Source of the DNA: Krasilnikoviella flava | GTDB taxonomy: Bacteria; Actinomycetota; Actinomycetes; Actinomycetales; Cellulomonadaceae | Direction: 5' to 3' | Assembly (NCBI RefSeq): GCF_900167525.1 | Contig: NZ_FUZQ01000001.1 | Span: 186,001 to 250,000 of the forward strand | DNA: 64,000 bases | Shown: piece by piece, positions 7,689 through 9,932 of the stretch | How positions within the stretch are numbered: the stretch's first letter is position 1 | How the letters are laid out: every line of letters begins with the position of its first letter | Notes under the pieces: generated by a model | What the model was told of the DNA's origin: nothing | Seen by the model: only the letters and a program-made list of their open reading frames with translations | The model's database searches: none | Made by a program: the position numbers and the translations under genes

Positions 7689-7970
7689 CTACTCGACCGT
7701 GGACATCACGGTCAGCTGTGCATGGATCCGCACCCGGAGGGTCTCCGGCGCGCGCTCCGAGCAGGAGCGCCGGACCAGCTGCTTGACGAGCTCCTCGACG
7801 CTCAGCTCGGCGAGGCACGGCGAGCAGTGCGCCACGTGCGCGCGCATCCGCTGCTCGTCCTCCGGCGTCATCTCCGAGTCGAGGAACTCGTTCAGGTGCA
7901 CGAGAGCGTGCTCGCACTCGTTCTCCCCCGCGGCCCGGTCGTGCGGGATGGGGGTGATGGGGTCGGTCAT
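7689..7970 (-). CDS. rsrA: Zinc-binding anti-sigma factor RsrA
   Basis: This 93-residue ZAS-domain protein is predicted to hold SigR inactive until thiol oxidation expels its zinc. The metal ligands are C19, H45, C49 and C52. Their spacings of 26, 4 and 3 match C11, H37, C41 and C44 of Streptomyces RsrA exactly. The ATG at 7970 overlaps the sigR stop in TCAT, so the two are translationally coupled. Expression should follow the sigR promoters, giving the familiar auto-amplifying loop with negative feedback. It converges on bL37 through the 40-bp palindrome. Confidence 0.93.
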
Positions 7971-8656
7971 GACGCTCCTCCACGAGCCGGGACCAAGCCA
8001 CGCTGGGCGGCGTAGTCGGCGAGCAGCTCGCGCAGCTGCCGGCGGCCGCGGTGCAGACGGGACATCACCGTCCCGATCGGCGTACCCATGATCTCGGCGA
8101 TCTCCTTGTAGGGGAAGCCCTCGACGTCGGCGTAGTAGACGACCATGCGCCGGTCCTCGGGCAGCTCCTGCAGCGCCCGCTTCACGTCGGAGTCCGGCAG
8201 CCGGTCGAGCGCCTCCGCCTCGGCCGACCGCAGCCCCCGCGACGTGTGCGACGCGGCACGCGCGATCTGCCAGTCCTCGACGTCCTCGGCCTGGGACTGC
8301 TGCGGCTCGCGCTGCTTCTTGCGGTACGTGTTGATGAACGTGTTCGTGAGGATCCGGTACAGCCAGGCCTTGAGGTTGGTGCCGGGCTTGTACTGGTGGA
8401 ACGCGGCGAACGCCTTGGCGAACGTCTCCTGCACCAGGTCCTCGGCGTCAGCGGGGTTGCGCGTCATGCGCAGCGCGGCCGAGTAGAGCTGGTCCAGGTA
8501 TTGCAGCGCGTCGCGCTCGAAGCGCTCGGCGCGGGCCGCGCTCGTCTCGTCCTCGGGGGCACGCTCGGTGTCCTCCGGGATCTCCTCGCTGTCCGGGACG
8601 TGCCCGGTGCTCCCGCGCGGGGCGTCGCCGCCCGCCGGGCCAAGGTCCTGGGTCAT
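7967..8656 (-). CDS. sigR: RNA polymerase sigma factor SigR (thiol-oxidative stress)
   Basis: A 229-residue group IV sigma factor. Region 2 includes [14 protein letters not shown] and the region 2.4 stretch [20 protein letters not shown]. Region 4 includes the helix-turn-helix [20 protein letters not shown]. The short form starts at ATG 8656, 8 nt after a TAGGCT hexamer (complement 8665-8670), and would be nearly leaderless. The frame stays open upstream, and a GTG at 8848 lies 9 nt after the -10 part of a SigR-type promoter, which would give a form 64 residues longer. This parallels the unstable SigR' isoform of Streptomyces coelicolor. Coupled to rsrA. Confidence 0.93.
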
Positions 8657-8845
8657 CACCGTCGAGCCTAGTCCAGCCACTGGGTGGGGTCCTCCGATCC
8701 ACGGGGTGTGCAGGTCAGTCGTGCCGCCGGACGCCGGGCCGGCCGTGCCCGCGGTCAGGGCGTCGGCCGGGACGGCGAACAGCCGCACGGACGCGGGTCC
8801 GGCTGCAGGGACGGCGGCGGGCGCCGTCGGCGAGGTGCGGGTGTT

Positions 8846-8884
8846 CACGTGGTTGGCAACCGTGGGACGGGCTCGCGCATTCCC
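8846..8884 (-). promoter_or_regulatory. SigR-dependent promoter and leaderless GTG for a long SigR isoform
   Basis: On the minus strand GGGAAT (8884-8879) is followed by exactly 18 nt and then GTT (8860-8858), an exact match to the SigR/SigH consensus GGAAT-N18/19-GTT. Nine nucleotides after GTT lies GTG 8848-8846, in frame with sigR 64 codons upstream of its ATG. The expected transcription start falls at or next to this GTG, so a SigR-driven leaderless mRNA would encode an N-terminally extended protein. Confidence 0.78.
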
Positions 8885-8922: not shown

Positions 8923-9888
8923 TCAGGAGGCCAGCGGCGCGGCGAACCTGCGCCGGTACGCGACCGGGCTGGTGCCGAGCTGCCGCGCGAAGTGGTGCCG
9001 CAGCACGGGCGCGCTGCCGAAGCCGCACAGCCGCGCGATCTCGTCGACGGGCGCCTCGGTCGACTCGAGCAGCTCCTGGGCGCGCGCCACGCGCTGGCGC
9101 GCGAGCCAGGCGCCCGGCGTCGTCCCCGTCTCCTGCCGGAAGCGGCGGGCGAAGGTGCGCTCGGACAGCGCGGCACGCCGCGCCAGCCACGGCACGGCTT
9201 GCTCGTCGGCGAGGTGCTCGCGCATCCAGGCGAGGAGCGCGGCGAGCGACTCACCCTCGCGTGGCAACGGGTCGACGACGAACTGCGCCTGCCCGCCCTC
9301 CCGCTGCGGCGGCACCACCATGCGCCGAGCGACGGCGCGCGCGGCGTCGGCGCCGACCTCCGACCGCACCAGGTACAGGGCCGCGTCGATCCCGGCCGCG
9401 GTGCCCGCGCTGGTGAGCACCCGCCCGTCCGCGACGTAGAGCGCGTCGGGGTCGACGTCGGCGGTGGGGACCTCCCGGGCCAGCCGCTCGGTGTACATCC
9501 AGTGCGTGGTGCAGCGCCGACCGTCGAGCAGTCCCGCGCGGGCGAGCGCGAACGCGCCCGAGCAGATGGCGAACAGCCACGCCCCGCGCTCGTGGGCACG
9601 CCGCAGCCCGTCGAGGTAGGCGGGCGTCAGGACGTCCTCGTCGTCCTCGTCGATGCCGTACGCGACCGCGACGACGAGGTCGGCGTCCTCCAGCGCCTCG
9701 AGGCCGTGCTCGACGACGACGGGGAACCCGCCCTTGGTCATGACCGGCCCGGGCTCGGGCGCGCAGAGGGTGAAGTCGAACGCCGGCCCACCGGTGTCGG
9801 TGCGGTCGATGCCGAACACCTCGTAGGCCACGCCGAGCTCGAACGGCGCGACGCCGGGGACGACGACGGCCGCGACCTTCCGGATCAT
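8923..9888 (-). CDS. AraC-family regulator with DJ-1/PfpI (GATase1-like) domain
   Basis: The 321-residue protein joins an N-terminal DJ-1/PfpI-like domain (about 1-190) to a C-terminal double helix-turn-helix AraC domain (about 220-321). The nucleophile-elbow region reads [17 protein letters not shown]. The AraC part shows [19 protein letters not shown] and [17 protein letters not shown]. The start ATG 9888 follows the hexamer CACCAT by 6 nt, consistent with a leaderless mRNA. A perfect 13-bp palindrome lies 58 bp upstream in the divergent promoter region and is a candidate operator. Regulators of this type often control neighbouring catabolic or stress genes; the small membrane gene opposite is the obvious candidate target. 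Confidence 0.87.
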
Positions 9889-9932
9889 GTCGCCATGGTG
9901 CCACGAACATGGCGGGAAGTCGACGCATCCTG

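Follow-up and report, generated by a model that had tools for sequence, protein, structure and literature searches.

Nested promoters that may choose between a long and a short SigR through leaderless-like starts in Krasilnikoviella flava and its family

The window, a stretch of 64,000 nt from the Krasilnikoviella flava genome (contig NZ_FUZQ01000001.1, positions 186,001 to 250,000), carries on its minus strand a SigR/RsrA system in which a SigR orthologue is followed by RsrA. Both proteins score above curated cut-offs in profile searches: sigR matches TIGR02947 at 363.8 bits (cut-off 251.55), while rsrA, downstream of it, matches TIGR03988 at 78.3 bits (cut-off 62.5). The stop of sigR and the start of rsrA are joined in an ATGA overlap (7967-7970), which is found at the same offset in 94/95 family loci. 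Read from the minus-strand sequence, sigR has a long form of 293 aa and a short form of 229 aa. The next gene upstream, also on the minus strand (8923-9900), codes for a regulator of the DJ-1/PfpI-AraC type that resembles FtrA and scored under the model cut-off. The features of the locus are listed here from upstream to downstream, with SD standing for Shine-Dalgarno.

8884-8879, minus strand: -35 element GGGAAT of p2, a SigR-type promoter (direct reading; GGGAAT or GGAAT in 18/18 genus genomes)
8860-8858, minus strand: -10 element GTT of p2, after a spacer of 18 nt (direct reading)
8848-8846, minus strand: predicted long-form start codon GTG, 9 nt past GTT and in the sigR frame (direct reading)
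8848-8657, minus strand: N-terminal extension of 64 codons, from GTG 8848 to the codon preceding ATG 8656 (start 9 nt past GTT; in relatives the frame is kept open and is, by comparison, under selection)
7967..8848, minus strand: predicted long-form SigR' coding sequence, 293 aa plus stop (the TIGR02947 match spans residues 100-288)
8768..8782, minus strand: LFAVP motif, extension residues 23-27 (from the count of [LF]F.[VLFI]P in family extensions)
8690..8695, minus strand: SD-like GGAGGA preceding GTG 8680 (CGGAGGACC followed by a GTG in the sigR frame in L001-L006)
8678..8680, minus strand: possible third start GTG, in frame and eight codons before ATG 8656, which would give 237 aa from p2 mRNA only
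8670-8665, minus strand: -10 box TAGGCT of p1, housekeeping-type, inside the extension frame (TAGGCT in 94/98 family loci and a variant of it in the other 4, at a distance of 8 nt from the ATG in all)
7967..8656, minus strand: short-form SigR coding sequence, 229 aa plus stop, with start ATG 8656-8654 (direct reading and profile match; SD-like motif in 0/97)
7689..7970, minus strand: rsrA, anti-sigma factor (TIGR03988 above cut-off; overlaps the sigR stop)

The original prediction had placed a SigR-type promoter (GGGAAT, 18 nt, GTT) upstream of sigR, a GTG 9 nt beyond its GTT from which 64 codons run in the sigR frame without a stop, and a TAGGCT hexamer before the downstream ATG; on the minus strand every one of these elements lies exactly where it was said to be. 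In the genome of 4.85 Mb, the pattern GGGAAT-N17-19-GTT has 19 occurrences and a reversed control pattern has 3, and a single promoter-like site is therefore modest evidence. The layout was compared across 98 family loci, made up of 18 of the genus and 80 hand-picked among at least 176 non-genus matches and covering 20/25 genera; 6/200 family genomes gave no sigR match. The p2 box was searched for up to 1100 nt away in these loci, five of which lay beyond 600 nt. All 18 genus genomes have the promoter box with an in-frame GTG 9 or 10 nt past GTT, and 97/98 family loci have an ATG or GTG in the sigR frame at +8 to +10 after GTT (+9 in 75, +10 in 19 and +8 in 3; GTG in 61, ATG in 36 and TTG in 0). 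At +9, ATG/GTG codons in frame outnumber those out of frame by 75 to 0 in the family and by 35 to 1 among 146 distinct loci outside it. The one exception, L165, has an ATG at +10 that is out of the sigR frame, apparently one base off relative to L164; as it has no start codon in the sigR frame at +8 to +10, it is omitted from all counts of 97. That a promoter-like string should have met an open frame by chance might draw on the three hits of the reversed control and on the other reading frames, which are free of stops in 49 to 86 of the 97 extensions, but the joint presence of box, offset and frame in 97/98 family loci, despite an extension length that ranges from 14 to 96 codons, reduces its probability to almost nothing. 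Given the family-wide comparison, the layout of p2 and in-frame start is more than chance, and the predicted two-start layout, far from being peculiar to the host genome, is what its family usually has.

For Mycobacterium tuberculosis SigH, the promoter consensus is reported as GGAAYR-N17-GTT (PMC4803200) and the promoter numbering as G-11 T-10 T-9 (PMC6411747). With GTT at -11 to -9, +1 sits 8 nt past GTT and the commonest start (+9) one base beyond, so that a 1-nt leader is as likely as no leader. In 81/97 family loci, the base immediately 5' of the long start is C. A pyrimidine-purine initiator is preferred at transcription starts, and with C before the long start such an initiator would coincide with the start codon. 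It follows that the predicted long-form mRNA would have a leader of 0 or 1 nt. An SD-like motif precedes the long start in 9/97 loci, and all nine are at or upstream of the GTT box. Leaderless translation in mycobacteria is described as beginning from ATG or GTG only (PMC4633059), and the long start resembles that of a leaderless gene, with an ATG or GTG at the expected transcription start and no SD. As far as sequence goes, the proposal of a SigR-driven, leaderless-like long form survives the comparison.

Turning to the short form, 94/98 family loci have TAGGCT upstream of the core ATG at a distance of exactly 8 nt, and the other four have TAGTCT, TACTCT or TACGCT at that distance; the start codon is ATG in 98/98. 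A -10 box is thus found for p1 in 98/98 loci, together with a -35 region without clear consensus. No SD-like motif precedes the core ATG in any of 97 family loci, whereas the same SD test finds one before rsrA in 80/95; because of this difference, both forms are probably leaderless or near-leaderless. The original prediction had reserved this property for the long form and is here amended, since the short form looks leaderless or near-leaderless as well. A pyrimidine and then G directly precede the core ATG, and the leader of the p1 mRNA may accordingly measure 0-2 nt. Read in the extension frame, the TAGGCT-like box gives a CTA or ATA codon; such codons are rare in genomes this rich in GC, and the stretch is therefore probably conserved as DNA. 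An input of WblC at p1 was considered and rejected, as the AT-rich stretch of a WblC site is absent before p1 in the 98 loci, where the longest A/T run in the 60 nt ahead of the box is 3.

The original prediction had turned in part on whether the codons of the extension are conserved in relatives. Across the family loci, the sigR frame runs through the extensions with 0 stops in 4381 codons, while the other five frames contain 82 and 18 stops (forward) and 13, 11 and 34 stops (reverse). Among 28 close pairs, pN/pS in the extension is 0.60 in frame against 1.09 and 1.29 off frame, in an alignment that was built on in-frame proteins and favours frame 0, and 0.032 in the core. In a nucleotide alignment of the extensions, the first, second and third codon positions differ 242, 199 and 303 times (34 pairs, with some loci used twice). 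The GC content at these positions is 0.735, 0.688 and 0.855 in the extension and 0.692, 0.47 and 0.96 in the core, so that the extension shows a weak coding pattern. On these comparisons the conservation that had been looked for is found at the level of the frame: the extension frame is under selection, yet most of its residues are weakly constrained or free and evolve fast. Short motifs recur within it. [LF]F.[VLFI]P is present in 23/97 family extensions (13/18 in the genus), against at most 1 in shuffles, and L[ED]RP is present at residue 5 or 6 in 12/97, which is also above shuffles; both motifs were spotted first and counted afterwards. L[ED]RP is missing from the window's own extension. 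Elsewhere it is found in 5/45 other leaderless-like loci and in 9/104 further loci under a looser start definition, two groups that include a few named members of the host family. A conserved N-terminal Cys acting as a redox degron was rejected: Cys occurs among the first six residues in 60/97 extensions, but the window is without it and A, V, T or S are found elsewhere. These data bear on the view that the long form is made with a functionless extension, the frame being open merely since translation begins at the 5' end of the mRNA. The wide range in length and the gap between 0.60 and 0.032 in pN/pS speak for this view; the motifs that beat their shuffles do not, and neither does Streptomyces, where the instability of SigR' is reported to stem from its extension (PMC5472188). 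We regard a functionless extension as rather unlikely, though an alternative of some weight.

A possible third start complicates the path from promoter to protein. In 6/18 genus members (L001-L006, comprising the window and the five relatives closest to it), CGGAGGACC precedes a GTG that is in the sigR frame and eight codons upstream of the core ATG; by the SD test, an SD-led GTG is absent from the other 12. GTG 8680 lies upstream of the transcription start of p1 and is therefore carried on p2 mRNA only, from which a near-short SigR may also be made in this subclade. Taken further, p2 mRNA might serve mainly for the near-short SigR, with the codons upstream of GTG 8680 translated little or not at all. 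GGAGGA and the in-frame GTG, confined as they are to p2 mRNA, would fit such a use in the six subclade members, but the SD-led GTG fails to extend to the remaining 12 of the genus, SD-led alternative starts number 14 among 97 family loci as compared with a +8 to +10 start in 97/98, and the extension frame shows selection. A p2 mRNA devoted mainly to the near-short form is accordingly given a low probability.

The reading that we prefer, and hold to be likely, is that two nested promoters of sigR-rsrA choose the start codon through the transcription start and so give a long and a short SigR. What the loci show is the elements with their spacing and conservation, a frame under selection and an absence of SD motifs, and from these we infer both transcription starts and both proteins. 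Freed SigR would drive p2 (GGGAAT-N18-GTT), whose mRNA would start at GTG 8848 or about one base before and would be translated without a leader into the 293-aa SigR'. Housekeeping polymerase would drive p1 (TAGGCT), with an mRNA that starts 0-2 nt from ATG 8656 and yields the 229-aa SigR. By analogy with Streptomyces, SigR' would be the amplifying, short-lived form, and in the subclade with the SD-led GTG 8680, p2 mRNA may add a near-short form. Of the original claim that two promoters yield two isoforms, the two promoter-like signals and the two in-frame starts stand; a strict mapping of promoter to isoform may fail in the subclade, since the SD-led GTG 8680 is on p2 mRNA.

Outside the family, the SD test takes the first SD-preceded ATG or GTG and is loose, which applies to all of the following SD-led counts. 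The 40 Streptomyces-named loci divide into 37 that are SD-led and 3 that are neither SD-led nor leaderless-like, with no start at +8 to +10 in any of them. Another 40 named loci, some of them of the host family, comprise 24 leaderless-like, 11 SD-led and 2 neither, with 2 lacking a site and 1 an anchor. The corresponding figures for 108 order and class loci are 29 leaderless-like, 45 SD-led, 9 neither, 10 without site and 15 without anchor. At least one leaderless-like locus was found in 21/43 other families sampled. Since leaderless-like and SD-led loci are scattered, switching between the two modes more than once is suggested. The balance tips slightly towards sigR being doubly leaderless in the family and in members of many actinobacterial families, the transcription start alone, with no ribosome-binding site, setting the N terminus there.

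The original prediction had likened the long form to SigR' of Streptomyces coelicolor, to which it does correspond. In S. coelicolor, SigR' is described as made from the p2 promoter, with a half-life near 10 min and a loss that depends on Clp, and its extension as 55 or 58 residues long in the two papers (PMC4921905, PMC5472188). The locus shares with sigRp1/sigRp2 of that organism the orthologous sigR-rsrA pair, an upstream SigR-type promoter, an in-frame extension (64 residues here) and a downstream short-form promoter. The predicted elements of the SigR/SigR' two-isoform layout, understood as an upstream SigR-type promoter with an in-frame extension, are present here. The differences concern how the starts are reached. 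In Streptomyces the long start is behind an SD and a leader, 44-98 nt past GTT, while that of the host is leaderless-like; short SigR there has a ribosome-binding site and a GTC start, in contrast to the host ATG without SD-like motif 8 nt after TAGGCT; and the AT-rich WblC site before p1 has no counterpart in the 98 host-family loci. Streptomyces infC is reported as a SigR target, and IF3 as a repressor of short SigR (PMC5472188). A corresponding IF3 feedback found no support, as control hits occur at 2/17 genus infC loci and a SigR-type box at 1/17 (GGAAC, 477 nt upstream of the match), and neither did Clp feedback via clpP1, with a SigR-type box within 700 nt upstream in 0/16 clpP1-type genus loci, a count confined to the clpP1 type among the clp genes. 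The infC of the host genome (L330, about 1500) seems to start at a non-canonical ATC behind an SD-like stretch.

Leaderless genes of actinobacteria and mycobacteria are described as lacking an SD and as having either a TANNNT some 12 bp upstream of the start or an mRNA that begins with ATG/GTG (PMC3160421, PMC4633059). Host sigR differs from these in that a single gene has two such starts, of which one would depend on an ECF sigma factor, so that promoter choice would set the N terminus. A related ECF sigma gene, M. tuberculosis sigE, is reported to have two promoters, one of which gives a leaderless mRNA; there the leaderless promoter is the downstream p1, and the account of sigE in that article makes no mention of two leaderless starts that share a frame (PMC4921905). 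Where 'leaderless' appears in two articles that deal with SigR, it concerns p1 of M. tuberculosis sigE (PMC4921905) and M. tuberculosis SigH targets (PMC4803200). In the open-access literature searched, we recognised no description of a leaderless SigR'. Kim 2009, the title of which reportedly reads 'in actinomycetes', may report the long form outside Streptomyces.

SigR' is known as a well-studied feedback isoform that is SD-led in Streptomyces. Should leaderless mRNA be its source in many other actinobacteria, the isoform would be fixed at the promoter, and the long form may go unnoticed where annotation starts at the downstream ATG. A single locus would then allow leaderless control to be set against leadered control as both occur in nature. 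Were sigR doubly leaderless, the output of a thiol-stress regulator would fall under whatever governs leaderless translation. An ATG or GTG 9 nt after GTT also makes a simple rule with which further leaderless SigR targets might be found. A long frame begins with a GTG at +9 at three of the 19 SigR-type sites in the host genome: that of sigR and those of two genes which we take to be FrnE-like and YceI-like. The latter two (L111, L120) may be leaderless SigR targets. The YceI-like gene, like sigR, also has an internal ATG. At L129, again in the host genome, a SigR-type site lies upstream of the start of a dnaK-like frame, with a leader of about 110-125 nt.
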